Assembly: GCA_930367205.1 (NCBI GenBank)
Contig: OV884009.1
Span: forward strand, 104,243,189-104,307,188
Direction of reading: 5' to 3'
Length of the DNA stretch: 64,000 nucleotides
Source: Acanthosoma haemorrhoidale
Lineage: Eukaryota > Arthropoda > Insecta > Hemiptera > Acanthosomatidae
Part shown: positions 26,696 to 63,274 of the stretch, in pieces
Layout of the letters: every line of letters begins with the position of its first letter
Position numbering within the stretch: the stretch's first letter is position 1
The notes under the pieces: model-generated
What the model saw: the letters and a program-made list of their open reading frames with translations, nothing else
The model's database searches: none
Told to the model about the DNA's origin: nothing
Program-made: the position numbers and the translations under genes

Positions 26696-26700
26696 TGTAT

Positions 26701-28167: not shown

Positions 28168-31100
28168 GGAGCGTGTCGGCAGAGAGGCGACCGCATCCTG
28201 AGATGTAATGCAATTCGGGAGAGGATGTGTGCGTTGCCAATAATTAGGGTCAAAGGAGGAGAGATGTGTCTGGTGGACACGGGAAGCACCAACACAATCA
28301 TGTCCCGTGGAGCGCTGGAGAGGCTGTATGGCGGAGAGAGGGCACTCCAGATTCAGGTATGTAATTGTAGTTTAATCACCCTGGGAGGCCCCTGCGAGGT
28401 AGTGGGAGAGTTAGTCATAGGGCTAAATAGGTGGGCGAAGAAAGGGGGGGATCTAAAGATACATATCGTAGGAAACATGCCGTGGGAGTACCAGGTGATA
28501 GTTGGGTGCGACATGTTGGGGAAGGTAGGCGCGCGTGTGGAGAATATCGGGGAAAAATGAAACATTAAGTTGGGGAAAGTGGATTATAAATGTCAAGGGA
28601 CTATATGGGACGGAAGAGCGCGGATAGGGGCGGTTAATAAAATAGAGGGCTGGAGGGAAGGCCTACAGAGGGAGTTTGAGGATATTTTTTACGTAGAGGG
28701 AGACACGCTAGGACCGACTGGGAAGACGGTCCACGAGATCCAGTTAAAGAAAGAACGAGTGACATACGTGAAAGAGAGACGATATCCGCAGGCGCTACGT
28801 AGGCATATTAGAGAGGAGCTAGAGATTCTCAAACGGCAAGGGATTATAATTGATAGCACTTCGCCATATAACAGTCCTCTATGGGCAGTGAGGAAGAAAA
28901 ATAGACCTGGGGACGAGACGGAGAAATACAGGGTATTTATCGATTATCGGAAGTTAAACGAGAACACGACGGACGAGAAGTATCCTATTCCCCGATTTGA
29001 GGACATATTAGACAGATTGAACGGGGCGACAATATTTAGTACCCTAGATCTAAAGGCAGGCTATCACCAGATCAAGATGAGCGCGAACGACCAAGACAAA
29101 ACGGCCTTTACATTTGAGAGGGGGCATTATCAATTTACCAGGATGCCATTTGGACTGAAAAACGCCCCGATTACCTTTCAACGCCTAATGGATGAATTTT
29201 TGAGGGGAATAGACGAAGCGGTATGCCAGGTCTACATGGACGATCTGTTAGTTTTCAGCAGAACGGAGGCAGAGCACGTTGAGCACCTAAGAAGTGTATT
29301 TCAAAGAGTCCGCGAATTCGGATTAAAATTGTCCATGGAGAAGTCTCTGTTGGGGAAGAAAAAAATCAATTTTTTGGGCCACACCATCTCACAGGATGGG
29401 GTTAAGCCAGACTCTACGAAGGTCGAGGCGATTAGAAGGATGGTGGTGCCCACAGATGTAAAGGGGATCCGTTGACTTCTGGGGACGCTTAATTATTACA
29501 GAAGATTTGTGCCGGACATGGCGGCATACCTGGTGCCTATTAATAATTTACTGCGAAAGGGAGCGAGGGAGGTAATTACCCCAATCATGGAGCAGAACTT
29601 CCGGAAATGTATGTCTAGCGCACAAGAGGAACCAATATTAGCATTTCCCGATTTCCAACATCCCTTCACAATCACCACTGATGCCAGCGAATACGCACTG
29701 GGGGCAGTGTTGTCGCAGGAGAGAGACGGTGGGGAGCACCCGGTGGCGTACGCTAGTCGACGGCTCACAGAAACGGAAGCGCGGTATAGTGCTCTAGAGA
29801 GAGAGCTCCTAGGTATCGTCTGGGCTATAGACCATTTCCGCCCATATGTCTTCGGCAGAAAATTCCGTGTTCACACCGACCACAGACCCCTAAAATGGGT
29901 AGGAAAGTTAAAGGAGTCCTAGGCGCGGGTCACGAGGTGGAAAGAGTTTTTGTCCCAGTACAATATGGAGATCATATATAAACCCGGGAAAGAGAACGTA
30001 GTGGCAGACTGGCTGTCCAGAGCCATTACTGTGAATGCATTGGAAGAAGGGGAACCATCCGGGGAAATCCAACAGTTTCTCCGGGAATGGACACCCGGGG
30101 AGGATGGAAGCCTCGGTACGCGAGGAGATAGCGAAGGCGAGGAAACCCTTGAAGAGGAAGGTTCCGCCGCCGAAAGACCTGTTGAAATGGAAGTAACAGA
30201 AGGGATCGTGAACGACAAAAGATGGCAGATCATTTAGAAATCCAAGACCTCAGGGCGGCTGCAGATCGCATATGACAGTTATGGGAGAAGTAAAATCGCG
30301 ACGATTTGGTCGCCACCAGGGGTTAGGAACGACCAAATTTGCCGTGCATTGAAAGATGCCTCGGAACCCGGAAAGACCCATCATGTATTTGTAGGGAATG
30401 CCACTATTTGGGAGAAAATTCGTAGACTTTGGCGAACGGAACAACTTGGAGTGGATAGGGTATTTATTCGGTGCACGTCGATGGTGGAGACACTCAAAGA
30501 CAGAGAACAGCAGCTGGAAGTGACACTGGCCTATCACCAAGGAAAAACGAACCACCGCGGAGTTCAGGAAACGTTGCAAGCGTTGCGGCGGAGGTACGTT
30601 TGGTGGGGAATGAAAAAGAGCATAGAAGAAATGATAGGGGCATGTGCAGTCTGTCTCACTACGAAGTATGACAGACATCTACCACAGGGGCGACAAGAAG
30701 AATCGCCCACCGCCGAGACACCGTTGAGTGACTTACAAGTGGATACCTTCACTTGGAGGGGGTATAAGTGGGTTACCACAATCGACAGCTTTAGCAAAGT
30801 GGCCATGGCGCACCCGGTGCAAGAACGGTCATCAGACGCGGTAATGCTGGCATTAAATACCTGGTTCCAGTTTTACGGAGTACCAGACCGGAACTCGTCG
30901 GATGGGGGCAGAGAATTCGACAATGCCAACATCCGAAAAGAAATGAAGACTCTCGATGTCTCTTGGCATCTTAATACCCCAGGGCACCCTAAGAGTAGAG
31001 GAGGGATAGAAAGATTGCACAGCACCCTGAGTGACCACCTGCGGGTATATCACGCGGAAAAGGGTCTGCCGGCGAATGAGGCAATGCCGAAGGCGGTGGC

Positions 31101-31548
31101 CGCTTACAATCATTCGATCCACACCGCGACGGGGTTCTCCCCGTTCTAGATCCTCTTTGGGCTGCGCGAAAGACGGAGAAATGGGGCAGAGACGGTAGCA
31201 GACGAGGGCATGGCGGAGAAAATGGCGAGTAATACTGTCGGTTTGAGGAAAATATGTGACAAAGTCCGAGAAAGGATAACGAGGGACAAAGCGAGACGAG
31301 TGGAACGGGAAAACCTCAAAGTCCGGGATCGAATGGGGGAACTTAAAATCGGGACTATCGTCTATAAAAAACTAGAGTCAAATAGGAGCAGAGAGCTGGT
31401 GCGATATGAGGGCCCATTTAAAGTGGTCGTGATTAGGGAACACAACGTCGTGACAATTGAGAGTATACGACCTCCTAAGAAGCGGCGAAATGTCCACATA
31501 GAACAATTAAAGCTTCCACCAGGGGGGGAGGTTGTAGATCAGGAATGA
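28168..31548 (+). pseudogene. Pol of element A, five in-frame stops
   Basis: One continuous frame with stops at 28558, 29473, 29920, 30235 and 31147 (each a sense codon in element C at the first four sites, and GAG at the fifth). Domains in order: aspartic protease (LVDTGSTNTIM near 28270), reverse transcriptase (KLNENTTDEKYPIPR, VYMDDLLVFS near 29230), RNase H (TDASEYALGAVLSQ near 29680) and integrase. The integrase has the HHCC zinc region near 30530-30660, catalytic D in LQVDTFTW, D in SSDGGREFDN, E in SRGGIERLH, and a C-terminal YEGPFKVV domain. All catalytic residues are intact; only the stops disable it. Confidence 0.92.
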
Positions 31549-31849
31549 GCTGGAGTGTCCTCGCAGCATACACGCGAGGAACATTGTAAATAGTTATAGT
31601 TATGTGATTTTTCCCACAAAAGTATTGTTTTTTTTTTAAAGTTTTCTTTTATGTTTTTTGTTTACAAGTGACAGTTGGTTTTTACGTTTTATAGGATTAG
31701 AGCTTAATGTGAGGGATTACAGGCTGTGTACGGGCGGGGTTGGCCTTTGCTCCTTTGTAACATTAGCGGAGCATTATTTGAATGGACTAAGACGTCCGAG
31801 TGTTGGACTTCAAAGTTTGCGAATGGGTGTTCGTAAACTGGTGGGAGGG
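31549..31849 (+). other. 3' UTR of element A with polypurine tract
   Basis: Non-coding 3' region; the 65-codon ORF here has no homologue recognised. It ends in the purine run GGTGGGAGGG just before the LTR, the expected plus-strand primer. Confidence 0.7.
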
Positions 31850-32029
31850 AGTTAAGTCCAGGCGCCGCTAGTGCCCAGCCTTAATCCCTAAACATATGTT
31901 ATCTGTATATGTTTACAGGTAATACCTATAGATAGAGGTATCTTGGTCTAAATAAAGCAGTCTTGTTATAACGTTCTACGTGTTCTTATTACCAACCTTT
32001 CTTAGCTTGTAATTCAATAAACATTAACT
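31850..32029 (+). repeat. 3' LTR of element A
   Basis: 180 bp, one difference from LTR1 (CCCTAAAC for CCCCAAAC). It directly abuts the cut end of element B's LTR. Confidence 0.95.
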
Positions 32030-32091
32030 TATGTTTACATCCCGACGTTCGAGGATTAAGGTTGAGTACTGATGCTGCCCGGAGCATAACT
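32030..32091 (-). repeat. Partial 3' LTR of element B
   Basis: First 62 bp of an LTR starting AGTTATGCTCCGG on the minus strand, cut by element A's LTR. The remaining ~120 bp are not found on the other side of A. Confidence 0.7.
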
Positions 32092-32454
32092 CCCCCCTGC
32101 CAGTTTACGCACATCTCCTCGTAAACTATGAAGTCTAAGCCTAAATTGAGGACGACTTAGGCGATATTACGATCACTCTCCTAATCGTACTAAGGGAGCG
32201 AAGGCCAGCCCAAACATTACACAACCTGTAATCCATTACATTCGGTCGTATTTATAAGACGCTTATAGTCCAAATAAAACGCTGCCTCTAACACTGCAGC
32301 CACTAGTGACAAAATAAAAAAAAAACAAAAAAAAATTACATGGCTCATTACTCACAGAAAACAATGGCATCTTACACGCTACGCAAACTCGATATTTCTA
32401 CACAGCCTGTGTACATTAAAATTTGGCTACGTGCAGAAGCGAGGACACTCCAAC

Positions 32455-35400
32455 TCACTCATGGCCTGCACCCTCCCCCCCTGGTGGGAGTTTTAACTGT
32501 TCGACGTGGACGGTCCTCCGTTTCGTCGGAGGTCTTGTACTCTCGATGGTGACGATGTTATGCTCCCTGATCACCACCACCTTGAATGGACCCTCGTATC
32601 TGACCGACTCTTTGCTCCGATTAGAGCCAATTTTATGATATACAAACGTCCCAATTTTAAGGTCCCCCATTCGACCCCGGACTTTGAGGTTTACCCGAGC
32701 AACTCTCTTGACCTTCTCCCTCACGATTTTGTCACGAACTATGCCCCAAAGTTTTCCGAGCTCTAAGTGAGCACTTAACATTTGTTCCGCCATTCCCTCG
32801 TCCACCATCGTCTCTGTCCCGTTCCGGCGCCTCGCGCGCAGTCCGAAGAGGATCTCGAACGGCGTAAACCCCGTGGTGGAGTGGATGGAATGATTGTATG
32901 CCGCCACTGCCTTCGGCATCGCCTCGTTCGCCTGCAGACCCTTTTCTACCTGATACACCCGCAGGTGGTCACTCAAGGTACTGTGCAACCTTTCGATGCC
33001 TCCGCGACTCTTAGGATGTCCTGGGGTGTTGAGATGCCACACGATATCAAGATTTTTCATCTCCGTCCGAACGTTTGCATTATCGAACTCCCTACCCCCA
33101 TCCGACGAGATTCGGTCCGGTACCCCATAAAACTGGAACCACGTTCGTGATGCCTGTAAGATGGCGTTGGATGATTTGTCTTTTACGGCGTACGCCATAG
33201 CTACCTTACTGAAGGTATCTATTGTCGTAACCCACTTATATCCCTTCCAAGTGAACGTGTCAATCTGTAGTTCACTCAGTGGCGTCTCTGCTGTGGGTGT
33301 TTCCTCCTGTTGTCCCTGTGGTGGGTGTCGATCATACTTAGTCTTAAGACATATATCGCACGTTCCTATAATCACTTGGATCGTCTTTTTCATATCCCAC
33401 CAGAAGTACCACCGCTGTAATGCTTGCAACGTCTCCTGTACACCGCGGTGGTTTGTCTTCCCTTGATGGTAGGCAAGCGTTACTTCCCGCTGCCATTCCT
33501 CATCACGCAGTGTCTGGACCATAGACAGACAACGAACAAACGATCGATCAGTTGTTCTGTTCTCCATAATTTCTTGATCAGATCCCACACTGTCGCGTTG
33601 CCGACAAATAGATGGTAGGTCTTCCCTGGTCTGGATGCATCTTTCAATGCCTGGCAAATTTGGTCACCCTTGACACTCGGTTGGGACCAGATTGTCATAA
33701 TACTATTCTTGCCATAGTTTTCATGAGTAGCTCGCATCAGGCCTGTCGTTTGCGTCTTCCAAATAATTTGTCGCCGTTTATCGTTAATGATACCCTCGAT
33801 CGTCTCCATTTCCACCGGACGTTCTCCGGCAGATTCTTCTGCTTCTTGGTGTTCGCTCCCATCGTTATCATCCCGCGTACCGCGACTTCCATCTTCCCCG
33901 GGCGCCCATTCCTGGATAAATTGTCTGTGATCCCCGGACGTTTCCCCTTCCTCGACTGCATTTACGGTAATAGCTCGAGATAGCCAGTCCGCCACTACAT
34001 TGTCCTTCCCTGGTTTGTATACAATTTCCAGGTTGTATTGGGACAAAAACTCCTTCCAGCGTGTCACCCTGGCGGATGATTCCTTAAGCTTCCCCACCCA
34101 TTGAAGAGGTCTGTGGTCCGTATGTACTCTGAATCTCCGCCCGAAGACGTATGGACGAAAATGATCAATAGCCCATATGATGCCAAGAAGTTCACGCTCG
34201 AGGGCACTGTACCGCGCCTCCGTGTCGGCCAGTCTTCGACTCGCGTACACCACTGGTCGTTCCCCCCCATCTCCCTCCTGCGACAGCACTGCTCCCAATG
34301 CATACTCACTTGCGTCGGTGGTGATAGTAAATAGCTTCTCAAAATCGGGAAACGCCAGGATTGGTTCCTCTTGCAGTCGAGCCATGCATTTTCGAAGTTT
34401 TTGCTCCATAATAGGTGTAATCGCTATCCGCGCCCCCTTCCGCAGCAGGTTACTGACGGGTACGAGATACTCTGCCATGTCTGGCACAAAACGCCGATAG
34501 TAATTTAGCGTACCTAAAAGTCGCCGAATGCCCTTGACGTCTTTCGGCACCGCTATCTTTCGAATTGCGTCGACTTTTGCAGAATCCGGCTGGACTCCCT
34601 CCCTCGAGATGGTATGCCCTAAGAAGTTGATCCGATCCTCTCCCAGCGATGATTTTTCCATCGACAATTTTAACCCGAATTCACGCAACCGTCTAAATAC
34701 CCTCCGGAGATCTTCAATGTGTTCGGATTCTGTTCGGCTGAAGATCAACAGATCGTCCATATAAATCTGGCATACCGCCTCGTCTATCCCCCTCAGGATT
34801 TCATCAATCAATCTCTGGAAAGTAATCGGAGCGTTCTTCAAACCAAATGGCATCCGAGTGAACTCATAGTGCCCCCTCTCGAAAGTAAAAGCTGTTTTGT
34901 GTTGATCGGTAGCGCTCATTTTGATTTGATGGTACCCTGCTTTCAAATCCAAAGTGCTAAAGATTGTGGCTCCATTCAGTCTGTCGAGAATGTCCTCAAA
35001 ACGGGGAATCGGATACTTCTCATCCGTTGTGTTTTCATTTAATTTTCTAAAATCGACGATGACTCTATATCTCTCCCCCTCCTCTCCCGGTTTACTCTTC
35101 TTTCGTACTGCCCACAGAGGACTATTATAAGGGGATGTGCTATCAACGATTATACCCTGTCGTCTTAAGCTGTCGATTTCTGTCCGGATATGTTGGCGGA
35201 GTGCCTGCGGATATCGTCTCTCCTTCACATACGTTATTCGGTCAGATTTTAATGGGATTTCATGTACTGTCTTCCCCGTTGCCCCAAGCATATCACCCTC
35301 CACGTAAAAAATATCTCCGAACTCCCTACGTAAGCTTTCCCTCCAGTCCACAACTTTCTTGACTGCCCCTATCCGCGCACTCCCACCTCTTACGGTCCCC

Positions 35401-35817
35401 TGACATTGATAAGTAACCCCCCCCCCAACTTGATCCGCCACTCCTTTCCCTTGTTCTCTACAAGCGCGCCTACCCGACCCAATAGGTCACACCCCACTAT
35501 TATTTCATACTCGCGCGGCATGTACTCCACAATATGTACGTTAATATCGCCCATTTCTCTAAATTCACGACCGCCTCGCCCGCCACTTTACAGGGCCCAC
35601 CCAGGGTAATTAACTTGCACTTACATACCTTGACCTGGAGTGCCCTCTCTCTGCCATACAGCCGCTCCAAGGCACCGCGTGACATTATGGTATTGGTGCT
35701 TCCTGTATCCACCAAGCACCTCTCTCCCCCCTCGACTCTGATTATTGGCAACTCGCATAGTATCCCTCTCACTGTATTACACTTTAGAGTGCGGTCGCCA
35801 CTCTGCTGCCACCCTCC
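32455..35817 (-). pseudogene. Pol of element B, frameshifted
   Basis: Protease (LVDTGSTNTIM, 35.7 kb) is in frame with gag beyond the TGA. A frameshift near 35555 and a C-run expansion (ten C at about 35411-35420) displace the RT frame. The 653-codon frame 35441-33480 holds RT (KLNENTTDEKYPIPR, IYMDDLLIFS) and RNase H (TDASEYALGAVLSQ). A third shift near 33535 leads to the 400-codon integrase frame 33657-32455 with the HHCC region, LQIDTFTW, SSDGGREFDN, SRGGIERLH and the C-terminal YEGPFKVV. Catalytic residues look intact in every domain; only the frame is broken. Confidence 0.9.
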
Positions 35818-35820
35818 TCA
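35818..35820 (-). promoter_or_regulatory. Gag-pol TGA of element B
   Basis: Same GCC TGA GGA context as A and C. The next ~27 codons are conserved with A/C as protein (both have GDR.L.CN..R...C.LPIIRV), although the DNA has diverged. Confidence 0.65.
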
Positions 35821-36935
35821 GGCTGCCACACGCCGCTCCCATCTTCTCGAAGTAGTCTTCTTTCGCTCATGCTCTCGGCTCCTGCCACGAGCTGGCTCTT
35901 CTTCCGTTTCCGACGTTCCTGACGCTCCTGAAGATTCCTCAGCTGAAGATCCATTACCCCTGGGTGATATATTTCTTCTTTCCCGCATCGTTTGCGTATT
36001 CACTTCCATGGGTTCTGCCCTATGAACATCTCTCCTCCGATACACGTAAGGGCAATGCCTAGCGATATGCCCCTCCTCACTGCACTCGAAACATTTTGTG
36101 CGGGGGCACTGTGCCACTAAATGACTCGCCTGCCGCTCCCCTGTCCCTACCGGTTGGTGTTTCGACTTTTTTCCAATTTGATTTAGGGACCCTGGTTCTC
36201 CTGTACACTATCCGGCTCCATTCTCCCTCATCCTCCTGTATCCTCCTCCCTGGCGCTGGTGTCAATCATGACTTGGGCACATTCGAGGAATGAGCGCTCA
36301 TTAGGGAATACCTCTTTTCTCCCTGTTTCCTTCGCCAACTGTACCTTCAGTATAGTAGACAGAAATCCCATTCTGCCCTCTAACTCTTCGATGCTCATTG
36401 TCTCTCTCATTTTCTCCATTATTTGATTATAACGGGTTAGAAGAACTGCGGCATATTGGCCGCTACTCTGCCTTGATGATTTTGTTTCCCGGAACATCTG
36501 GAAAATATCTTCTTCGGGCGTCCATCGCCCTCCTCCATATGCTTTCTTTAGCCGCATCTTCACTGTTTCACACGACGTCTCCTCATCAGCTTGGATCTGG
36601 TTGAGAATCCTTCTCTTGACCCGACATATCAGGGCCGCTCTTAGTGACTCTGCATCCCTGGGGTCCAGAAGATTTTCCTCCGATTTTGCTAGGATTAAGG
36701 CAGTGAGGCGATCTCCTCCCTTCAGAAAGTGGTTGAGTTCTCCTAATTCGCCAGTGAACCATTCCAGCTCTGAAATTGCATTTCTCAGATCTTGAGTGTT
36801 CATTGCTTTCACTCTCATCAACGCAAGAGCGGTAGCATGAGCTTCTGGCAAAACGCCCACTCTTCTCGTTGCTACATGTTCCGCGCCATCCACTACGTTC
36901 AGAACAGGTGGTCGTAGCACGCCTCCTTCCGCCAT
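35818..36935 (-). pseudogene. Gag of element B, frameshifted, one zinc knuckle lost
   Basis: The first frame (36935-36228, MAEGGVLRPPVL) matches the A/C gag through the capsid region. A shift near 36230-36265 and a deletion near 36117 remove the first zinc knuckle, and the remaining frame keeps CFECSEEGHIARHC and the charged tail. It ends GCC TGA GGA at 35820-35818, in the same frame as the protease. Confidence 0.88.
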
Positions 36936-37024
36936 TCTTTCTTCAATTTTTTATTTAACACGGCAAAAAGGAGAAGAGAAAAAAAAAAATCGAACAGACG
37001 TCGCTTACTTTTCTTCCACACCAC

Positions 37025-37039
37025 TGGTGCCGAAACCCG
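37025..37039 (+). promoter_or_regulatory. Primer-binding site of element C, tRNA-Phe
   Basis: TGGTGCCGAAACCCG as in element A, but preceded by ACCAC of the B junction instead of an LTR. Confidence 0.85.
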
Positions 37040-37120
37040 TGAACCGTGGAGAAAGAGAGTTATCGAGTGCGAGCGTAATTTTTTTTTGTTTTTTTTTCTT
37101 CTATACGCGAAAGAGAGAAG

Positions 37121-38311
37121 ATGACTGAAGGAGGAATTTCGAGACAGCCCGTCTTGAATCTCGTAGAGGGAGCAGATATTAGAAGAGTGGGAACTATGCC
37201 AGAAGTTCACGCCACGGCGCTCGCGCTGATGAGGGTAAAAGCGATGAATACCCAGGATCTGAGGAAGGCTGTTGCGGAGCTGGAGAGATTCACTGGGGAA
37301 CTGGGTGAGCTGAACCATTTCCTAAAAGGAGGAGACCGTCTCACAGCTTTTATTGGAGCTAAAGCAGAAGAAAATTTAATAGATCCCAGAGACGCGGAAT
37401 CGTTGAAGGCGGCCCTGATATGTCGGGTCAAGAGAAGTATACTGAATCAAATTCAGGCAGATGAAGAAACCCCGTGGGAATTAATTAAGATGAGATTGAA
37501 GAAGGCGTACGGAGGAGGACGATGGACTCCCGAGGAGGACATATTCCAAATGTTTAGGGAGACAAAGTCCCCAAGACAAAGTAACGGGCAATATGCTGCG
37601 GGGTTAGTAGTCCGTTTCAATAAGATAACGGAGAAGATGAGAGAGTCGATTAGCGTAGAAGAGGTGGAGGGTAGAATGGGATTCTTATCCACAATTCTAA
37701 AAGTGCAACTGGCCAAGGAGACAGGAAGAAAGGAAGGATTCTCTGATGAGCGCTCGTTCTCGGAGTGTGCACAATCAATGATCGACACTAGTGCCAAGGA
37801 GGAAGAAGTGAGGGTGCAAGACGTCGACAATGAGTGGAGCCGAGTTGCATACAAAAGAACCCGGACCCTGAAACCAACCTGGAGGAGACCAGAAACGTCC
37901 GTTATTGGCAGAGACAAGGGAACGACAGGAGAAAGAAGATTTAGAGGAACGAGACCGAGGTATGCCCCGCCCAGGGAAGAAAGAAAATGCCACGGATGTA
38001 GGAAGGCAGGACATTTAGTGGCACAGTGTCCTCGAACAAAATGTTTTGAGTGTGGCGAGGAAGGACACATCGCGAGGCATTGCCCGTATATCTTCCGGAG
38101 GAGAGAATACCAACGACCAGAACCAATGGAGGTAAACACTCAAGAAGTAAGAGAGAGACGGAGCATGACACATGGGGAGAGTGGATCATCAGAAGATGAG
38201 TCATCAGGGACTTCGGGAACTGAAGGAGAAGAAGCGAGGCGCAGCAGAAACAGGAGACAGACAGGGCAGAAGGTCGAGTCACGTAGATGGGAGCAACGTG
38301 ATGAAGCCTGA
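37121..38311 (+). CDS. Gag of gypsy element C (396 aa)
   Basis: Intact and the same length as the gag of element A, with few substitutions (e.g. start MTEGGISRQPVL). The capsid region, the two zinc knuckles (CHGCRKAGHLVAQC near residue 290, CFECGEEGHIARHC near 309) and the Ser/Glu-rich basic tail are all present. The start is the first ATG after the leader and is shared with A and B. Since C lacks a 5' LTR, expression would need readthrough from an outside promoter, e.g. another LTR in the composite. Confidence 0.9.
   Translation: MTEGGISRQPVLNLVEGADIRRVGTMPEVHATALALMRVKAMNTQDLRKAVAELERFTGELGELNHFLKGGDRLTAFIGAKAEENLIDPRDAESLKAALICRVKRSILNQIQADEETPWELIKMRLKKAYGGGRWTPEEDIFQMFRETKSPRQSNGQYAAGLVVRFNKITEKMRESISVEEVEGRMGFLSTILKVQLAKETGRKEGFSDERSFSECAQSMIDTSAKEEEVRVQDVDNEWSRVAYKRTRTLKPTWRRPETSVIGRDKGTTGERRFRGTRPRYAPPREERKCHGCRKAGHLVAQCPRTKCFECGEEGHIARHCPYIFRRREYQRPEPMEVNTQEVRERRSMTHGESGSSEDESSGTSGTEGEEARRSRNRRQTGQKVESRRWEQRDEA
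38309..38311 (+). promoter_or_regulatory. Gag-pol TGA, candidate readthrough stop (C)
   Basis: GCC TGA GGA, followed by an open frame of 815 codons to 40756. This is the only copy in the window where the downstream frame is uninterrupted, so it would be the best test of readthrough. Confidence 0.7.
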
Positions 38312-40756
38312 GGAGCGTGTCGGCAGAGAGGCGACCGCATCCTGAGATGTAATGCAATTCGGGAGAGGATGTGTGCGTTGCCAATAATTAGGGTCAAAGG
38401 AGGAGAGATGTGTCTGGTGGACACGGGAAGCACCAACACAATCATGTCCCGCGGAGCGCTGGAGAGGCTGTATGGTGGAGAGAGGGCACTCCAGATTCAG
38501 GTATGTAATTGTAGTTTAATCACCCTGGGAGGCCCTTGCGAGGTAGTGGGAGAGTTAGTCATAGGGCTAAATAGGTGGGCGAAGAAAGGGGGAGATCTAA
38601 AGATACATATCGTAGGAAACATGCCGCGGGAGTACCAGGTGATAGTTGGGTGCGACATGTTGGGGAAGGTAGGTGCGCGTGTGGATAATATCGGGGAAAA
38701 ATGGAACATTAAGTTGGGCAAAGTGGAATATAAATGTCAAGGGACTATATGGGACGGAAGAGCGCGGATAGGGGTGGTTAATAAAATAGAGGGCTGGAGG
38801 GAAGGCCTACAGAGGGAGTTTGAGGATATTTTTTACGTAGAGGGAGACACGCTAGGAGCGACTGGGAAGACGGTCCACGAGATCCAGTTAAAGAAAGAAC
38901 GCGTCACATACGTGAAAGAGAGACGATATCCGCAGGCACTACGTAGGCATATTAGAGAGGAGCTAGAGAGTCTCAAACGGCAAGGGATTATAATTGATAG
39001 CACTTCGCCATATAACAGTCCTCTATGGGCAGTAAGGAAGAAAAATAGACCTGGGGACGAGACGGAGAAATACAGGGTAGTTATCGATTATCGGAAGTTA
39101 AACGAGAACACGACGGATGAGAAGTATCCTATTCCCCGATTTGAGGACATATTAGACAGATTGAACGGGGCGACAATATTTAGTACCCTAGATCTAAAGG
39201 CAGGCTATCACCAGATCAAGATGAGTGCGAACGACCAAGACAAAACGGCCTTTACATTTGAGAGGGGGCATTATCAATTTACCAGGATGCCATTTGGACT
39301 GAAAAACGCCCCGATTACCTTTCAACGCCTAATGGATGAATTTTTGAGGGGAATAGACGAAGAGGTATGCCAGGTCTACATGGACGATCTGTTAGTTTTC
39401 AGCAGAACGGAGGCAGAGCACGTTGAGCACCTAAGAAGTGTATTTCAAAGAGTCCGCGAATTCGGATTAAAATTGTCCATGGAGAAGTCTCTGTTGGGGA
39501 AGAAAAAAATCAATTTTTTGGGCCACACTATCACACAGGAGGGGGTTAAGCCAGACTCTACGAAGGTCGAGGCCATTAGAAGGATGGTGGTGCCCACAGA
39601 TGTAAAGGGGATCCGTCGACTTCTGGGGACGCTTAATTATTACAGAAGATTTGTGCCGGACATGGCGGCATACCTGGTGCCTATTAATAATTTACTGCGA
39701 AAGGGAGCGAGGGTGGTAATTACTCCAATCATGGAGCAGAACATCCGGAAATGTATGTCTAGCTTACAAGAGGAACCGATATTAGCATTTCCCGATTTCC
39801 AACATCCCTTCACAATCACCACTGATGCCAGCGAATACGCACTGGGGGCAGTGTTGTCGCAGGAGAGAGACGGTGGGGAGCGCCCGGTGGCGTACGCTAG
39901 TCGACGGCTCACAGAAACGGAAGCGCGGTATAGTGCCCTAGAGAGAGAGCTCCTAGGTATCGTCTGGGCTATAGACCATTTCCGCCCATATGTCTTCGGC
40001 AGAAAATTCCGTGTTCACACCGACCACAGACCCCTACAATGGGTAGGAAAGTTAAAGGAGTCCTCGGCGCGGGTCACGAGGTGGAAAGAGTTTTTGTCCC
40101 AATACAATATAGAGATCATATATAAACCCGGGAAAGAGAATGTAGTGGCAGACTGGCTGTCCAGAGCCATTACTGTGAATGCATTGGAAGAAGGGGAACC
40201 ATCCGGGGAAATCCAACAGTTTCTCCGGGAATGGACACCCGGGGAGGATGGAAGCCTCGGTACGCGAGGAGATAGCGAAGGTGAGGAAACCCTTGAAGAG
40301 GAAGGTTCCGCCGCCGAAAGACCTGTTGAAATGGAAGTAACAGAAGGGATCGTGAACGACAAAAGACGGCAGATCATTTGGAAATCCAAGACCTCAGGGC
40401 GGCTGCAGATCGCATATGACACTTATGGGAGAAGTAAAATCGCGACGATTTGGTCGCCACCAGGGGTTAGGAACGACCGAATTTGCCGTGCATTGAAAGA
40501 TGCCTCGGAACCCGGAAAGACCCATCATGTATTTGTAGGGAATGCCACTATTTGGGAGAAAATTCGTAGACTCTGGCGAACGGAACAACTTGGAGTGGAT
40601 AGGATATTTATTCGGTGCACGTCGATGGTGGATACACTCAAAGACAGAGAACAGCAGCTGGAAGTGACGCTGGCCTATCACCAAGGAAAAACGAACCACC
40701 GTTCGAGATCCTCTTTGGGCTGCGCGAAAGACGGAGAAATGGGGCAGAGACGGTAG
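38312..40756 (+). CDS. Pol of element C (protease-RT-RNase H), integrase core lost
   Basis: The frame is continuous with gag across the TGA; the first internal ATG is at 38369. Protease LVDTGSTNTIM lies near residue 15 from that ATG, followed by RT with KLNENTTDEKYPIPR, LDLKAGYHQIKM and VYMDDLLVFS. The RNase H has TDASEYALGAVLSQ and TDHRPLQW, then the connector and the first part of the integrase zinc region (YHQGKTNHR). The frame then shifts at the 586-bp deletion and ends after about 17 unrelated codons. The product could still process and reverse transcribe but could not integrate. Confidence 0.9.
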   Translation, partial: GACRQRGDRILRCNAIRERMCALPIIRVKGGEMCLVDTGSTNTIMSRGALERLYGGERALQIQVCNCSLITLGGPCEVVGELVIGLNRWAKKGGDLKIHIVGNMPREYQVIVGCDMLGKVGARVDNIGEKWNIKLGKVEYKCQGTIWDGRARIGVVNKIEGWREGLQREFEDIFYVEGDTLGATGKTVHEIQLKKERVTYVKERRYPQALRRHIREELESLKRQGIIIDSTSPYNSPLWAVRKKNRPGDETEKYRVVIDYRKLNENTTDEKYPIPRFEDILDRLNGATIFSTLDLKAGYHQIKMSANDQDKTAFTFERGHYQFTRMPFGLKNAPITFQRLMDEFLRGIDEEVCQVYMDDLLVFSRTEAEHVEHLRSVFQRVREFGLKLSMEKSLLGKKKINFLGHTITQEGVKPDSTKVEAIRRMVVPTDVKGIRRLLGTLNYYRRFVPDMAAYLVPINNLLRKGARVVITPIMEQNIRKCMSSLQEEPILAFPDFQHPFTITTDASEYALGAVLSQERDGGERPVAYASRRLTETEARYSALERELLGIVWAIDHFRPYVFGRKFRVHTDHRPLQWVGKLKESSARVTRWKEFLSQYNIEIIYKPGKENVVADWLSRAITVNALEEGEPSGEIQQFLREWTPGEDGSLGTRGDSEGEETLEEEGSAAERPVEMEVTEGIVNDKRRQIIWKSKTSGRLQIAYDTYGRSKIATIWSPPGVRNDRICRALKDASEPGKTHHVFVGNATIWEKIRRLWRTEQLGVDRIFIRCTSMVDTLKDREQQLEVTLAYHQGKTNHRSRSSLGCAKDGEMGQRR

Positions 40757-41106
40757 CAGACAAGGGAATGGCGGAGAAAATGGCGAGTAATACTGTCGCT
40801 TTGAGGAAAATATGCGACAAAGTCAGAGAAAGGATAACGAGGGACAAAGCGAGACGAGTGGAACGGGAAAACCTCAAAGTCCGGGATCGAATGGGGGAAC
40901 TTAAAATCGGGACTATCGTCTATAAAAAACTAGGGTCAAATAGGAGCAAAGAGCTGGTGCGATATGAGGGCCCATTTAAAGTGGTCGTGATTAGGGAACA
41001 CAACGTCGTGACAATTGAGAGTATACGACCCCCTAAGAAGCGGCGAAATGTCCACATAGAACAGTTAAAGCTTCCACCAGGGGGGGAGGTTGTAGATCAG
41101 GAATGA
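40703..41106 (+). pseudogene. Integrase C-terminal remnant of element C
   Basis: Out of frame with pol after the deletion: EILFGLRERRRNGAE through the VRYEGPFKVV domain to KLPPGGEVVDQE. It matches A's end closely. It would only be translated if the deletion frame were compensated. Confidence 0.85.
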
Positions 41107-41413
41107 GCTGGAGTGTCCTCGCAGCATACACGCAAGGAACATTGTAAATAGTTATAGTTATGTGATTTTTCCCACAGAAGTATTGTTTTTTTTTAAAAGT
41201 CAAAGTTTTCTTTTATGTTTTTTGTTTACAAGTGACAGTTGGTTTTTACGTTTTATAGGATTAGAGCTTAACGTGAGGGATTACAGGCTGTGTACGGGCG
41301 GGGCTGGCCTTTGCTCCTTTGTAACATTAGCGGAGCATTATTTGAATGGACTAAGACGTCCGAGTGTTGGACTTCAAAGTTTGCGAATGGGTGTTCGTAA
41401 ACTGGTGGGGGGG
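41107..41413 (+). other. 3' UTR of element C with polypurine tract
   Basis: Closely matches A's 3' UTR; ends GGTGGGGGGG before the LTR. Confidence 0.7.
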
Positions 41414-41591
41414 AGTTAAGTCCAGGCGCCGCTAGTGCCCAGCCTTAATCCCCAAACATATGTTATCTGTATATGTTTACAGGTAATACCTATAGATAGA
41501 GGTATCTTGGTCTAAATAAAGCAGTCTTGTTATAACGTTCTACGTGTTCTTATTACCAACCTTTCTTAGCTTGTAATTCAATAAACATTAA

Positions 41592-41593
<2 letters not shown>
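41414..41593 (+). repeat. 3' LTR of element C, outer right LTR
   Basis: 180 bp, by eye identical to LTR1 at 26516-26695, and followed directly by (TA)n. Confidence 0.95.

Positions 41594-41630
<37 letters not shown>
41594..41630. repeat. (TA)n microsatellite, right flank of composite
   Basis: TA repeat directly abutting the LTR; the counterpart of 26461-26515. Confidence 0.95.
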
Positions 41631-44995: not shown

Positions 44996-45007
44996 TGTCA
45001 AAGCTAA
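44996..45007. repeat. Target-site duplication (left) of the 5S-LINE unit
   Basis: TGTCAAAGCTAA, repeated exactly at 47264-47275. Confidence 0.9.
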
Positions 45008-47145
45008 TTCAATAACAACTTTATTATGATGAAATTACAATCTGCCTGATTAATAGGCAATAAATAATTGAGATAAGTGTTTTCATTCATACCATATTTA
45101 CAATTCATCATTCGTTCGCACATTCATACAATATTTACAAACAGCCCAGGGGCCCCCCAAGTCCACACGGCTGTTGCCTCCCTCGCAAGCGAAAGAGGAA
45201 GCGGAGTGTCGGGAAGTCCCCCACTTTCCCCACCAGCCACGTCACCGGATACGAGCCAGCGGAGGCTGACGAAGAGCGCGAGAGCCACATACGCTCAGGA
45301 CATGATTGGAGAAACTGGCCGTTGCCAGGACTCCCACTGTGCGCATTTATAGTAGGTCACGAGGCCACTGCCGTTTCAGTCTCCGGGGAGGATTATAGGG
45401 ATGAGTGGAGCAGTGCAATGACTGTGCTACGGGATTAGGGTGGTTGGATAGGTTACTATGGAATTTCATGAATTTGGAAGGGATGAGTTCAAGAATGTAG
45501 GGTATATTAAGATCATTATGAAGGGTTTTGTTGGTGACATAATAGGGGGCATTTACTATTGTTCTCAGGACTTTTGATTGAAAGGATTGGATGCGCTTGA
45601 TGTTCAACTTTTTTGCTGTCCCCCATAGCTCTATTCCGTATGTCCAGATTGGCTTAAGTATAACTTTGTAAATAAGTAGTTTATTTTCTATTGAGAGATG
45701 GGATGTCCTTCGAAGTAGTCTGTACAGTAGTCCAAAGCGTCTGTTTAGTTCTTGTCTTTTTAGCCTCGTGTGTGGGTTCCATGTAAGTCTTTTGTCGAGA
45801 TGGAAGCCTAAATACCTTACTGTCTCAGACACGGGGAGAGGAATCGAATTGAAAAATACTAGCGGACAGGACTTGCGGCAGAGGGTAAAGGTTATGTGGG
45901 AACATTTTGCTTCATTGAACTTGATTCGCCATTGGTTGCACCAATACTCGATCTCATCAAGGTGTTTTTGAAGGTTTTGGGATGCTATATCAGGGTCTGA
46001 GTGGGATGACAAGACTGCAGTGTCATCTGCAAATGTTGCCAAGAAGGTATGGGGGTAGAGGGGACATCAGCGGTATATAGGTTATAGAGGATGGGACCCA
46101 GGACGCTGCCCTGTGGAACTCCTGCTTTTATGGGATAGTAGTTAGAATATTCTAAACCACAGCGGACTTGGAAGAAGTGGTTTGAAAGGTAGGACTTTAG
46201 GATTAGAAAAAGGGTCTGTGGTAAATGTTTTTTGAGCTTGTAAAGCAAACCTGCGTGCCAAACCCTGTCAAAAGCTTGAGCTATGTCCAGAAATGCAGCA
46301 GTGCAATACTGTTTGGATTGAAGGGCTGAGGAAATGTGATCAACAACGCGAAGGCCTTGTTGAGTAGTGGAATGTTGTTGACGGAAGCCAAACTGATGTA
46401 TAGGGAAAAGGTTTTTGGATTCAACAATTGGAAGTAGACGTTTTAAGAGGAGTTTCTCAAATATTTTTGAGAGGATAGGGAGTAGGCTAATTGGACGGTA
46501 AGATGAGGCATCGTTGGGTGGTTTTCCGGGTTTGGCGAATAGGACAATAATGGAGTGTTTCCAGAGGAGAGGAAAGTGCGTCGTTCGGATAATGCAATTA
46601 TAGATGTAGGTTAGGAAGATTATGGCTTTATGAGGAAGCTGTTTGAGAATTTGAGGAGTAAGAAGATCATATCCACGGGATTTTCGGTAAGGTAAGTTTT
46701 TCAGACCTCAGAGGGGTTAACGGCTTTTGGTGGAAGTGAGAGAGGTATAGGTGAAGTGAGGTAATCTTCCACAGTTGTGCTGTGAGTATGGTTTTGATGA
46801 GAAAGGTGAGGTGTCAAAGTATGGGTAAGATGCAGAGCAAATTCCTCCGACCTATCATCACGACGGAGTGGGTGTGAAACAGGATGATACTTTAGGATTT
46901 TTTTAGTTACATTCCACAGAGAGTTATCCCTGGTAGAAAGAGAGGAGAGGTGGGAATTGAAGGAATCGGAACGGAAGGACGCCAATTGCCGCTTTACCAA
47001 TCTGCAGTACTGATTGTATGAGCGGCGATCAGCAGGATGTCGGGATCTTTGCCATACTGTTCTGGAACGGTGTTTGGATTGGATTAGGTCTTTGAGATGC
47101 TGAGGTAAACGATTATGATTGTAGATTTTTGGGTGACGATGGGTT
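45008..47145 (-). pseudogene. 5'-truncated LINE, reverse transcriptase and 3' UTR
   Basis: Begins downstream of the endonuclease (HPKIYNHNRLPQHLKDLI). The RT follows in three frames: PADRRSYNQYCRLVKRQLAS to about 46700, then SYRPISLLPILSKIFEKLLL and HQFGFRQQHSTTQQG, DIAQAFDRVWHAGLL, AGVPQGSVLGPILYNLYTAD to 46040, then FADDTAVLSS and the thumb with C-terminal PRRLKRQWPRDLL ending at 45347. The 3' UTR (45346-45008) shares words with 58200-58300. Two frameshifts (about 46700 and 46040) break it. All RT motifs are otherwise clear. The same family occurs at 18505-19925 and 56389-58465. Confidence 0.88.
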
Positions 47146-47263
47146 ACCAACAGCACGCGGTTTTCCCAGGCGGTCACCCATCCAAGTACTAACCACGCCC
47201 GACGTTGCTTAACTTCGGTGATCGGACGAGAACCGGTGTGTTCAACGTGGTATGGCCGTTGGC
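47146..47263 (-). rRNA. 5S rRNA sequence (retrotransposed copy)
   Basis: 118 nt, starting GCCAACGGCCATACCACG and ending CGTGCTGTTGGT. It includes the internal promoter blocks intact: AAGTTAAGCAACGTCGGGC (box A region) and GTACTTGGATGGGTGACCG (box C). Only the last one or two bases of a standard ~120-nt 5S are missing, where the LINE begins. No T-run terminator follows. It lies inside the target duplications, so it is a retrocopy rather than part of a 5S cluster. Whether it is transcribed is unknown. Confidence 0.93.
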
Positions 47264-47275
47264 TGTCAAAGCTAA
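47264..47275. repeat. Target-site duplication (right) of the 5S-LINE unit
   Basis: TGTCAAAGCTAA, identical to 44996-45007. Confidence 0.9.
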
Positions 47276-56388: not shown

Positions 56389-58300
56389 CAACGTCGTCGA
56401 CCAAAAGAAGAGAATCCTCAAGCTCAAGAAGAGACCCAGCTGGAAATTTGAGGCCTTCTCTTTTCCCGATGCAGTTCGTTACAGAGAGCAATAACAGGCA
56501 ATGCCCTCTCCTCGTCAGCAAGTGCGTCTTCCTCAGCATTCCATTCTTCTCGGCAACCAGCAAACCCACAATCCATAAATACATCCTTTCGACTCCTTAT
56601 CCATTCTCCTTTGGACTGCGAATGGTATTCGCACCCACACTAACGAACTGAGAGCATTACTATACTGCAAGAACATTGACGTGGCTCTCATAACTGAAAC
56701 AAGACAAGAATATACGACCATTTACAGTTCGACAGTACCAGACTTATCAAGCTATTCACCCAGATAGAAGAGCTCATGCAGGTATCGCTGTCATTGTCCA
56801 TAACTCCATTTCACATCACATAGTTCCTTTGGTAGCACTGATTTCCTTCAGTCCACTGCAGTGTCAATCAGCCCCCTCACTCTAGCATCAGTGTACAGCC
56901 CTCCCAATAAATCAATTTCCGATTCCCAATTCATCTCTTTTCTAGACTCCATCGGACTTCGTTTCCTTGTGGGCGGGAAATGCAAAGCATTGACATTGCG
57001 GCTCAAGATCCACAAATACAAGTGGACGTACTTAGCTTTCTGAACTCTCACGGAAACATTGCTCCACTATCTCTCCCGACACAGCTACCTATCGGCCATC
57101 TGATCCCAACCGATCACAGCCCTTTTATTCAAACTATTTCCCAAAGACCAATTTGCAAAGCACTTCCTCCTTCATTTATTGGGGCCCCAGTTGATTGGGA
57201 CCACTTCCACCATTTTCTTACAGATTCCGTAGATCTCAAAGTCTACACCCTGAAAACATCCCAATACCTAGAGGATGCAGTGCATTATTTTACTACTCTG
57301 ATCCAGGTTTAGGAGGCATCGTCACCTTGCCGTCATCTAATAATTCACAACGAATATCCTTTACCTCAGCATCTCAAAGACCTAATCTAATCAAAACGCT
57401 ATTTGAGGCCAGCGTGGCATATATCCCGACATCCTGCTGATCGTCGCTCTTACAATCAGTACTGCCGATTGGTAAAGCGGCATTTAGCATCCTTCCAATC
57501 CGATTGCTTTAATTCCTACCTCTCCTCTCTGTCTACAGTGTATAATTCTTTGTGTAATGTAACTAAAAAGGTCCTAAAATATTACCCTGTTTCACAACCA
57601 CTCCGTCCCATTCCGATGATGGGTCCTGGGCGGCTTCAGATGGGGAAAGTTCAGAAGAATTCACTCCGCAGCATTCCCGTACTTTCACGCCCTTTCCCCA
57701 ATCCTGCAATCCTACATTTCAAACCGCTTCTTCCAAGACCACAGTGGCTAAGAATATTCTAACTACTATCCCATAAAAGCAGGAGTTCCACAGGGCAGCA
57801 TCCTGGGTCCCATCCTCAATAACTTATACACCGCTGGTGTCCCCTCTACCCCAATACTTTCATGGCCATATTGGCAGATGACACTGCTGTCCTGTCATCC
57901 CATCCAGACCCCAATATAGCATCCCATAACCTTCTAAAACACCTTGATAAGATCGAGAATTGGTGCAACCAATGGCGCATCAAAGTTAATTAAGCAAAAT
58001 GTTCCCACATTACCTTTGCACTCTGCCACAAATGCTACCCGCTAGTCCTTCTGAATTTTATTTCTCTTCCTGTCTCCAAGACAGTGTGGTATTTAGGCTT
58101 CCATCTTGACAAAAGCTTGACATGGAACCCATACACGATGCTAAAAAGACAAGAACTAAACAGACACTAAACTAACTCTACTTGCTCGTATCCCGTGACG
58201 CGACTGAATGAGCAGCGTGGGAGTTTTCCACTCCCAAGATTCCACTTACTCTTTCGTATGCGAGGGAGGTGACAACCATGTAGATTTGCCAGGTCTCTAG
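56389..58300 (+). pseudogene. Decayed copy of the LINE family at 45-47 kb
   Basis: Retains the endonuclease that the 45-kb copy lacks: LLWNANGIRTHTNELRALLY near 56.6 kb, VYSPPNKSISD near 56.9 kb and PTDHSPFIQTIS near 57.11 kb. The linker PADRRSYNQYCRLVKRHLAS follows at 57.42 kb. The N-terminal half of the RT is deleted (57.6-57.7 kb), then AGVPQGSILGPIL, the LADDTAVLSSHPD block and the thumb to 58.17 kb, and 3' UTR words to 58.3 kb. Many stops. Confidence 0.82.
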
Positions 58301-58314: not shown

Positions 58315-58465
58315 TTATTGGGAGTCGAGGGAACATCAGCGGTGTATAGGTTCTAGAAGATGGGACCCGGGACACTGCCCTGTGGAACTCCTGCTTTTAT
58401 GGGATAGTAGTTAAAATATTCTAAACCACAGCTGACTTGGAAGAAGAAATAGGTAACCTGCTGCA
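58315..58465 (-). pseudogene. Inverted fragment of the same LINE
   Basis: Matches 46061-46210 (antisense of the GVPQGSVLGPILYNLYTAD coding region) in the opposite orientation to the copy just before it. It is probably a twin-priming or rearrangement product, or an independent fragment. Confidence 0.75.
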
Positions 58466-58721: not shown

Positions 58722-58865
58722 TGTGGTATCACTGTTTGTAACAGCGGTTGAACCTTCAGTTATAATAAACATGTAATGTGTTGTCATGCTCCTAACCGGA
58801 TTGTATTTAATAAAGTTATAAACAATGACTGGAAGACTTAATTAATAATTCTATATAATACAACA
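58722..58865 (+). repeat. 5' LTR of mag-like element
   Basis: 144 bp, TGTGGTATCACTG..ATACAACA, with AATAAAG near the middle. Confidence 0.93.
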
Positions 58866-58875
58866 TGGTGTCAGG
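58866..58875 (+). promoter_or_regulatory. Primer-binding site, probably tRNA-Leu
   Basis: TGGTGTCAGG matches the complement of a eukaryotic tRNA-Leu 3' end (CCTGACACCA); the match stops after ten bases. Confidence 0.5.
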
Positions 58876-58934
58876 TGAAATCCTAGTTATTTAATAAAGT
58901 GAATAAGTGTCATAGTCACCAACCACGTTGTGTG

Positions 58935-59702
58935 ATGGAGTTTAAACCACCCGCTGAATTAACGTTTTCGGGTAGTATTGCAGAAAACTGGAAAATTGGA
59001 AGCAGAAATTGGAATACTATCTTTTAGCAACTGAAAAGGATAAAAAAGCGGATAAAGTTAAAATAGCAATTTTACTCAACTTGATTGGTGATGAAGGTTT
59101 GGCTATTTTTAATACGTTTGGGCTATCTACTGAAGTCGACATATGACGCTGTAATTACTAAATATGAAAACTACTGCAAAGAAAAGAAGAATGAGTTGTT
59201 TGAGCTGCATAAATTCTTTAAAACATTGAGAATTGCTGGTCAGACTATTGACAATTATTTGACAGTGCTTCGCACTATTGGAGCAAACTGTGAATTCGGT
59301 GATCAGTTAGAATCTTTAATTAGGGATCAAATTGTTTTACACTTAACAGATCAAGGGCAGCAGGAAAGAATATTAACAGAAAGTGAACTAGATTTACTTA
59401 AAGTGGTTGATTTTGTAAAAGCATCTAAAACTACAAAGGAACAAGTGAGAGTAATACAAGATAAATCCGTAGAAGTACACGGATTAAAAAGAGGTAATAA
59501 TAAATCTAATTATAATACAGCTAATGATGAGGGCAGGAAACTTAATAATAATTTTAGGCCTAAATACGGGAATCACAGTAGTGTGAACATCAATATTGAT
59601 GCAGTATACTATCAGTGTTGGAAGTGTGGAAATAAACATAGACCCAATAATTGTCCAGCATATGGAAAGTATGGCAGTTTATGCAATAAGCCAAATCATT
59701 AA
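58935..59702 (+). pseudogene. Gag of mag-like element
   Basis: Starts MEFKPPAELTFSGSIAENWK, is broken by a frameshift and stop near 58990-59025, then resumes in frames covering KADKVKIAILLNLIGDEG and, from 59150, YDAVITKYENYCKEKKNELF to a zinc knuckle (CWKCGNKHRPNNCP near 59615). The order matches mag-type gag. Only the 59085-59702 part is an uninterrupted frame. Confidence 0.8.
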
Positions 59703-62700
59703 GTTTAGTACAGCAAAATAAGTATGAAAGTGAACAGGACAATGCGGATTCCCTTATTGACTCTTGTGAATTAGTTGAGAGCTCAAAGAAAAGTTTTAAA
59801 ATTGATAGTTTACAGTGGTTACAAAATTTAAATATTAATAACAAGGAATTGGAGTTCAAGCTTGATACGGGAGCTGAGATTAATGTAACGCCTATAAGCT
59901 GTCTGTTTAAATTGGGAGTAAGAACTGAAAATATGTGTAATAATAGAAAAATAATGCTGGAGGTATTTGGAGGCAATCAGTTAAAATCTTTAGGAGTTAT
60001 TAAATTGAAATGTAGTGCCAATAATGTGAGGAATTGCCAACTTAGTTTTGTTGTAATAAAATTAAACCCTTACTGGGGTTGTGTTAAATTAAACTTAATT
60101 AAAAGAATAAATGATCTTACAGTTGATAATCAAACGAAAGTGGAAATTTTGAAGAGAAATGAAGACATATTTCATGGAACTGGACTGATAAAAAATTATG
60201 AGTGTCACATTAAAGTGGATAAATCTGTAGCACCAGTTATCAGACCTCCTAGAAGAGTACCTTTAGTTATTAGGGACAGGTTGCAAGAAAAGTTAAATCT
60301 TTTGGAGAGAGCAAAAATTATTGAAAAAGTGGATTGTCCAGTGACATGGCTCAGCAATCTCGTGGTAATCTAAAAATTAGATGGAGGTCTTCGAGTATGT
60401 TTGGACCCAACTGATCTGAACAAAACCATCATTAAAACACCTGCGTTAATACCTACCTTGCAAGAAGTAACTTCTCAGTTAGAAGGTAAATGTTGGTTTT
60501 CTTTACTTGATCTTAAGGAGGGCTTTTATAATATTAAACTGGACAAAGAATCATCTAACTTGTGTGCGTTTTCAACAACTTTTGGGTGCAATAAATTCCT
60601 CAGACTCCCATTAGGTGTATTTAACGCCCCTGAGGAGTTCCAAAGAGTAAACACTTCCATATTTTCAGATATTCCTGGACTTATAATATATTTTGATGAC
60701 ATTTTAATTGCAACTGAGACAGAAAAAGAACATGATGAAGTGCTAAATAAAGTATTAGAAAGGGCCAGGTCAAGTAATTTAAAATTTAATCCTAGTAAAT
60801 TTCAGTATAAAACCAATAAAGTTACATTTTTGGGGTTTGAGTTTGAAAAAAATGGGATGAAAATTGACCCACAGAGAATAGAAGCTATTAAAAGTTTAGA
60901 GAACCCTAGTAATAAGAAGGAATTACAGAGAATTTACATAAGAAATTTAATTCCAAATTTTGCTGACTTAACTTCTAATTTGCGTACCCTTTTGAAATGT
61001 AATGTGGAATTTATTTGGACAGAAGCTCATTCAATGCTTCTAAAAAATATAAAAGAATTAATTACAAAATTCCAGTATTAACACATTTTGACACATCTAA
61101 GGAAATTACTATTGAATGTGATGCATCGAAGGATGCAATAGGATGCTGTTTAATGCAGGAGGGACAACCTATATCCTATGCGTCAAGGTCGTTGTCGCCA
61201 ACAGAAAAGAATTTTGCACAAATTGAAAAGGAATTATTAAGTCTTCTTTTTGCAACATCTAAATTCCATTTATACATCTATGGGCGTAAAACTTGTGTCA
61301 GAACAGACCACAAACCTCTTGTGTCTCTAATTAAAAGGAATGTTGGAGAAATAACATCACCCAGATTGCAGCGGATGATTCTTAAATTAATTAAATATGA
61401 CTTAGATTTGGGATATGTGCCTGGGAAGGAATTATATATTGCTGATTTGTTGTCAAGAGGTTGTGAAAATGAGGAGAACGTCAATTCTGAAGAAGATTGG
61501 ATTAGTGAGATAGTTCATGAAGTAGCATCTAATAATTATCAATTGCAGGTCACACCTAGAAGAAAAAAGATTCTCAAAGAAGAAACCGCCAAGGATAAGA
61601 CATTACAATGCCTAGTGCAGTACTACATGAAGGGATGGCCTGCCAATAGTAAAGATGTGCCTGAAGCAATAAAAGTATATTACAAATTTAAATATGAAAT
61701 TTGTGTTAGTGGAAACTTAGTATTTGTGGGCCAAAAGCTGTTGGTGCCTATTTCCTTGAGAAAAGAAATGTTGGAGAAGCTTCATAGTCCGCATTTAGGA
61801 GTCAGCAAAACACAAGCGAGGGCAAGACAAATATTTTACTGGCCACAAATGAACTCAGATATTGAAGGATATATATTAAAATATGTGAAACTTATAGGAA
61901 TAAAAATATAAAGGAACCTTTATTGCCTTACCCTGTTCCATCAAGACCTTATCAACGGGTCGGTATGGATTTCTTCCAATTAGGAAACTATTCCTACCTA
62001 ATAATTGTGGATTATTTATCAGCCTGGTTCGATGTAGTAAAGATGGCATATAAAACAGCATCAGAAACAATCAAGGCTATTAAACCAATATTTGCAACAC
62101 ATGGAATACCTCATGAAATTGTGGCTGATAATATGCCTTTCTCATCCTTTGAGTTCAAGCAATTTTGTCAAGGATGGGGAATAAAATTAACTAACACTAG
62201 CCCACACTATCCACAATCAGTTGGTATTTGCAAAAGTCTCATGATAAAATTTCACAAATCTGGACAAGATTTCAATTTAGGATTAATGGAGTATAGAAAG
62301 TGTCCAATCACAGGATTGCCAGTAAGCCCAGCACAAATACTGATGAACATACAGCTATGAACAGTCATCCCAACTATTGAAGAAAACCTTCTGCTAAATG
62401 TCGTTGGGGTGAAGGAGGATAGGGAGCTTAAACAGCAAAAGTCTAAGTTATGCTGTGATGTTATATCATAGTATAGAGAGAGGTTTCATTGATGGTGAAA
62501 GTGTAGTCCCATAGAGGAAGGAGATGGGAGCCAGCCCAGAATATTAAATCTAACAATGCGCCTAGATCCTACATAATAAGAACTGAGGATGGTCAAACAT
62601 TAGTTAGGAATTCAGTCCATCTACGGAAATAAGGAAATCCTTTTGCTATTAATGGAGAACAAAATAATTATCCCACTTTGGAAAATAACATTACCGAAAG

Positions 62701-62870: not shown

Positions 62871-62973
62871 TTTAATAGTAAAATTAGTATTATTGTATTT
62901 TGTCTATTTTGAAAATTTATTTTATTTTGTTGTGCATAATTGTTAATCTGGAATTTATATATAAGGAGGGAGA

Positions 62974-63116: not shown

Positions 63117-63274
63117 TTTAGTATTTCTTTTTCTTTTTTGGAAATTTAAAACTATAGTTGATTAACATTTGTACAATTCTCTAGAGAAGAATCGAAATTG
63201 ATCGAAATGATTTTCCACTCATGAGTGTAAAAATCAAATGGTAGTTAAAATGGAAAACCCCTCCTTCTAGGAGT

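Follow-up and report, generated by a model that had tools for sequence, protein, structure and literature searches.

Insertions in which a LINE is joined to an unrelated RNA are already known from mammals and from a fungus (PMC13174262; PMC2104539), and the former source also mentions chimeras of RTE-type LINEs with 5S rRNA that became SINEs. In mammalian U6/LINE-1 chimeras, as PMC13174262 describes them, a full-length small RNA stands in sense orientation on a 5'-truncated LINE, with target-site duplications (TSDs) around the whole. The same paper gives 27 mammalian 5S/LINE-1 insertions, 20 of them with TSDs of 7-17 bp, in which 5S rRNA lies on the 5' side of the LINE; there the 5S part is as a rule antisense and incomplete, with 5S positions 46 and 90 as common points of truncation, which fits twin priming. 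By that account antisense chimeras are ascribed to twin priming and sense chimeras to template switching or RNA ligation. In Magnaporthe, the WEIRD/MGL elements unite a LINE from outside the mammals with a non-coding RNA that is highly expressed, and are attributed in PMC2104539 to template switching by the reverse transcriptase (RT); they are recurrent, with 33 bipartite elements and a GCC*A/U switch motif. Finally HaSE3, a 5S SINE of Helicoverpa, carries a 5S head on a LINE-carried part, and template switching has been proposed for it as well (PMC3272025).

Here we analyze a composite insertion in a 64-kb stretch of DNA from the hemipteran Acanthosoma haemorrhoidale, the whole of which we call the window. 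Read on the minus strand, the segment 44996-47275 consists of a duplication (47275-47264), a 5S rRNA (47263-47146), a LINE (about 47141-45008) and the second copy of the duplication (45007-44996), giving a 5S-LINE composite of about 2.27 kb that includes an RT domain. Two unrelated RNA-derived segments are thus directly joined at a joint that can be placed to within 4 nt, both lie on the minus strand in the same orientation, and the LINE is 5'-truncated, the arrangement of the template-switch or ligation class. An earlier note on this DNA had described a 5S-LINE fusion within one duplication, and the Rfam match, the RT-domain match and the exact repeat pair presented below confirm it. That note had also pointed to mammalian 5S-L1 chimeras as comparable; this is right in kind, but those insertions are typically antisense and truncated (PMC13174262), whereas here the 5S is sense and full-length, and U6/L1 is the better structural match. 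The locus differs from U6/LINE-1 in having 5S rRNA, a Jockey-like LINE and an insect host, and in lacking a poly(A) tail at the LINE end. It differs from WEIRD/MGL in that one copy has been seen here and its LINE sequence at the switch point is a prediction based on relatives. We also considered and rejected a 5S-derived SINE; such elements are multicopy, 80-500 bp long by the definition in PMC3272025 and free of coding sequence, while the present insertion is about 2.27 kb long with RT coding sequence.

The duplication supports a single insertion of the two parts. The 12-mer TGTCAAAGCTAA has exactly two occurrences in the 64 kb, at 44996-45007 on the LINE 3' side and at 47264-47275 on the 5S (5') side, and a preceding C common to both copies (47263 on the 5S side) extends the repeat to 13 bp; the first G of the 5S may belong instead to the duplication. 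With up to 2 mismatches allowed, the window holds 9 matches against 7.87 expected, so that the weight of the repeat comes only from its exactness and position. In a Markov simulation the 12-mer was present in 3 of 2000 stretches of 5 kb. Without a complexity filter, 30 of the 61,300 12-mers in the window recur at a distance of 2.0-2.6 kb; among 35,130 non-simple 12-mers only 3 recur at about 2.2-2.3 kb, and two of these are the overlapping 13-bp pair itself. Moreover, the duplication on the 5S side abuts 5S nucleotide 1, a boundary that Rfam sets independently. The LINE 3' end was found in no other copy within the window and is thus fixed only by the duplication, and a search with the flanks and with the joined empty site found no second copy of the target inside the window. 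The exact pair and the chance tests bear out the claim that a perfect duplication lies on the 5S side and the LINE 3' side and is absent from the joint.

This geometry speaks directly to the possibility that a 5S retrocopy and a LINE were inserted separately and came to abut by chance. Since a single duplication brackets both parts with none at the joint, and since the LINE breaks where the 5S ends, we regard two independent insertions as very improbable. We give equally little credence to the group of explanations that invoke an ordinary 5S array, a LINE targeted to 5S genes or an assembly artefact. An ordinary array is contradicted by the presence of only one 5S in 64 kb; a 5S-targeted LINE would lie inside a 5S gene, while here the LINE lies outside a 5S that runs uninterrupted from nucleotide 1 to 118; and a perfect duplication is not what one expects of a misjoin.

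The 5S copy is complete. It matches Rfam RF00001 at 115.1 bits (E 1.2e-24) over model positions 1-120, from 47263 to 47145 on the minus strand, and is the sole Rfam match in the 64-kb window even at E values up to 0.5. Taking 118 nt, 47263-47146 with nucleotide 1 at 47263, the first 9 and last 9 bases close helix I, G-U pairs counted, and the ends read GCCAACGGC and GCTGTTGGT. The copy therefore begins at nucleotide 1 and includes the whole closing stem, the final 3' base or two being uncertain. It carries neither a spacer nor a T-run terminator and, being complete, looks as one would expect of the mature RNA.

Could such a copy drive its own spread? It had been proposed that, the internal promoter blocks being intact and no T-run following, Pol III might transcribe into the LINE and seed new chimeric copies. 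Intactness of the promoter blocks is judged here from the full-length Rfam match and not by function, and the absence of a T-run is right locally, the first TTTT lying 855 nt from the 5S start. Runs of four to five Ts stop Pol III. Here T4 runs (+855, +991) as well as T5 runs (+1053, +1408) come before the LINE 3' end at +2256, the point from which RT would have to begin; we therefore consider Pol III read-through an unlikely source of new copies, and this part of the earlier proposal is not supported. The same runs bear on the idea that this copy stems from a locus in which 5S and LINE were already fused, a 5S-headed LINE derivative transcribed and retrotransposed as such. That the 5S internal promoter region is present would suit such a descent, as does the existence of 5S-headed SINEs in insects (PMC3272025), but at the T4/T5 runs from +855 to +1408 Pol III would halt short of the LINE 3' end. 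A search of viral contigs for the exact 5S-LINE joint gave 0 matches, which says little about an insect genome. We judge descent from a fused locus to be improbable. PMC3272025 also presumes that 5S copies arising by retroposition, which lack upstream signals, are expressed weakly or not at all.

The LINE part (45008-47141, minus strand) starts within ORF2, in the linker between endonuclease and RT, and extends to the 3' end, as seen from the RT domain, the alignment to 894-aa relatives and comparison with a second copy in the window. The Pfam domain RVT_1 is found on the same strand as the 5S at 45347-46042 with 34.6 bits, above the cut-off of 29.6, and again at 45985-46248 with 22.4 bits, below that cut-off. 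ORF2 is broken into three reading-frame pieces, from which it follows that this LINE copy is dead. The first (46704-47141) comprises the linker and the pre-RT region and aligns to nine relatives (P0122-P0128, P0130, P0132) from an LPQ motif to NPSEV; the second (45988-46707), in a shifted frame, belongs to the RT domain, its last 87 aa giving the 22.4-bit RVT_1 match within a region that matches RT proteins; the third (45350-46066) holds the 34.6-bit match, the end of the RT and a C-terminus ending PRDLL, an ending shared by P0001 and P0002. While the LINE is cut within ORF2, the C-terminus and the 3' UTR (45008-45346) are kept, the latter with AATAAA at 45025-45020, a terminal TTATTGAA and no poly(A) tail.

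Protein searches place this LINE among insect elements, and the relatives that bear organism names make a hemipteran host likely, perhaps a true bug. The C-terminal piece matches 368 of 447 candidate proteins at E 1e-3 or better; 15 of the best 120 of these 368 carry an organism name, and 10 of the 15 are Hemiptera (6 Ranatra, 2 Nezara, 1 Triatoma and 1 aphid), the others being 2 termite, 1 moth, 1 wasp and 1 bacterial record. When the read-through protein is used, 3843 of 6426 candidates match, the best three being 894 aa long with 67-69% identity over the searched region, and 24 of the 25 named matches among the best 120 of the 3843 are Hemiptera (Ranatra, Panstrongylus, aphids), the other being a bacterium. 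The top match in both searches is filed under the bacterium Pantoea sp. Taur and is probably host DNA. The linker piece alone matches 1 of 28 candidates, over 38 aa far from the joint. For the RT piece we found no solved structure at E up to 1. Relatives of the LINE proteins number 0 in viral contigs (13 and 78 pattern matches) and 0 in prokaryote contigs (5 and 23 pattern matches), a collection from which records near the window's genome are possibly absent; this is as expected for an insect sequence. As an observation in its own right, insect-type LINE proteins stand under bacterial labels in P0001 and P0122 (Pantoea sp. Taur) and in P0121 (Klebsiella pneumoniae), probably through host or other contamination in the assemblies.

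The relative P0122 contains domains PF14529, PF03372 and PF00078, and thus has both the APE-type endonuclease and the RT that mark ORF2 of the Jockey clade; the endonuclease is absent from the copy at 45008-47141 owing to truncation. We take the LINE at 45-47 kb to be probably Jockey-like; one relative, P0235 (43% identity), bears the name 'transposon X-element' in its source.

The window holds further elements. A second, decayed copy of the same LINE family lies on the plus strand at 57331-58168 (BLASTN within the window, blocks of 83 and 86% identity) and serves below as comparator for the breakpoint. Next to it, at 58319-58446, a fragment of about 128 nt from the same RT region lies inverted; its identity is 92% to the element at 45-47 kb and 86% to the adjacent copy. 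At 10241-13839 there is a different LINE; its upstream ORF shows zinc-knuckle-like motifs (judged by eye), it has endonuclease and RT domains, and it ends in a 31-nt A run. No TSD was found for it: when the bases that follow the A run were looked for in 7501-10900, exact matching gave only two 8-mers, both inside the element. The plus strand of 26513-41600 holds two near-identical LTR elements, Gypsy-like by eye, that are separated by a diverged copy in inverted orientation; at the start of the first, its 186-nt terminal unit is present twice in tandem. Direct repeats of 112 and 33 nt at 58722-63117, each with copies about 4.25 kb apart, enclose broken pol frames that are Gypsy-like by eye, perhaps another LTR element.

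We now turn to the joint. Comparison with the second LINE copy and with protein relatives puts the breakpoint near residue 283 of 894, within the linker that separates endonuclease and RT. The ungapped alignment to the second copy begins at 47138. However, the 10-mer CATCGTCACC at 47141-47132 recurs at 57317 in the second copy, where relatives read Ala-Ser-Ser-Pro, and this shared block moves the start of LINE homology from 47138 to 47141. Counting both strands, the 64 kb contain this 10-mer three times (the third occurrence is at 32548), and in the second copy it sits 11 nt further up than the ungapped alignment would have it, an offset that a CGTCAYC repeat in that copy may explain. With homology from 47141, at most 4 bases, AACC at 47145-47142, lie between 5S and LINE; they may derive from the LINE, from the 5S 3' end or from untemplated addition. 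The claim of a joint without extra bases thus holds to within 4 nt, with AACC of ambiguous origin there.

What did the LINE read just beyond the break? The three nearest relatives have Ala-Val-Trp-Thr-Ala-Ser-Ser-Pro at the joint, and because they read Ala-Val-Trp the lost LINE sequence was probably GCN GTN TGG. At the level of single residues the joint was compared in 9 of the 120 best matches, and 8 of the 9 have Trp at the predicted position, P0127 being the one without; a loose, position-free Trp pattern occurs in 80 of the 120, and we do not count it as evidence. The 5S end GCTGTTGG resembles GCN GTT TGG, as GTN-TGG resembles GTTGG, so a TTGG may have been common to LINE and 5S at the joint. 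This resemblance is suggestive only. The second LINE copy has GTT for Val, TAG for Trp and no Ala codon, reading GTTTAGGAG there, and the 2138-nt LINE part contains TTGG 8 times; since the second copy has GTTTAGGAG rather than TTGG, and since the Magnaporthe study gives no microhomology at its jump sites (PMC2104539), the hint may be chance.

A duplication round both parts with none between them, a complete RNA in sense and a LINE cut at the joint all fit one target-primed reverse-transcription event, and the description of the locus as one retrotransposition unit is supported by this duplication geometry, by the completeness and sense orientation of the 5S and by the truncation of the LINE. 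We consider it fairly probable, on the evidence of one composite copy, that RT passed from the LINE RNA to mature 5S RNA during a single such insertion. The LINE endonuclease would have opened the chromosome at the 12-13 bp target, and RT, starting at the 3' end of the LINE RNA, would have copied it as far as about ORF2 residue 283 (relatives have 894). It would then have moved to the 3' end of mature 5S rRNA and copied this to nucleotide 1, and closure of the second strand would have left the duplication around the composite. From the layout we infer this order of events, and also that the 5S came from RNA rather than DNA and that RT jumped instead of copying an RNA already joined. Such behaviour has a precedent, since purified Bombyx R2 RT is described in PMC8857657 as adding untemplated bases and then jumping to another template with which there is little or no pairing.

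The two RNAs could instead have been joined before reverse transcription, by an RNA ligation of RtcB type, so that a continuous 5S-LINE RNA was copied in one target-primed event. Prior ligation yields the same geometry, is offered in PMC13174262 as the alternative for sense chimeras, and is the origin given in PMC8857657 for human LINE-1 chimeras in mobility assays. On the other hand, ligation would require that the 5S 3' end be ligatable and that the LINE RNA be broken at just this point, and the possible TTGG overlap, itself weak, would mildly favour a jump; no sign in the sequence for or against prior ligation was found. We hold ligation to be unlikely, albeit well short of negligible, and in our judgement the jump is clearly the favoured of the two. 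The RT jump proposed in the earlier note is thus our preferred account, without being separable from prior ligation of both RNAs.

The locus is a clear though not revolutionary example: it adds an insect host, a Jockey-like LINE, and a full-length 5S that stands in sense on a LINE piece that retains coding sequence. Among the first-listed open-licence papers, judged by title and the opening of the abstract, we came across no non-mammalian insertion of the 5S/LINE type apart from 5S SINEs, which is not proof of absence from print. A bolder reading would make this copy a member of a family of 5S-headed LINE derivatives in a hemipteran insect, an intermediate on the way from LINE plus small RNA to 5S SINE, arising from repeated jumps of a Jockey-like RT where the sequence resembles the 5S 3' end; we think this improbable. 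More generally, if our account is true, the joining of a complete small RNA in sense to a LINE would not be peculiar to mammalian L1 or fungal MGL. A Jockey-like LINE of insects would do so too, and would place the 5S in the orientation that 5S SINEs need.
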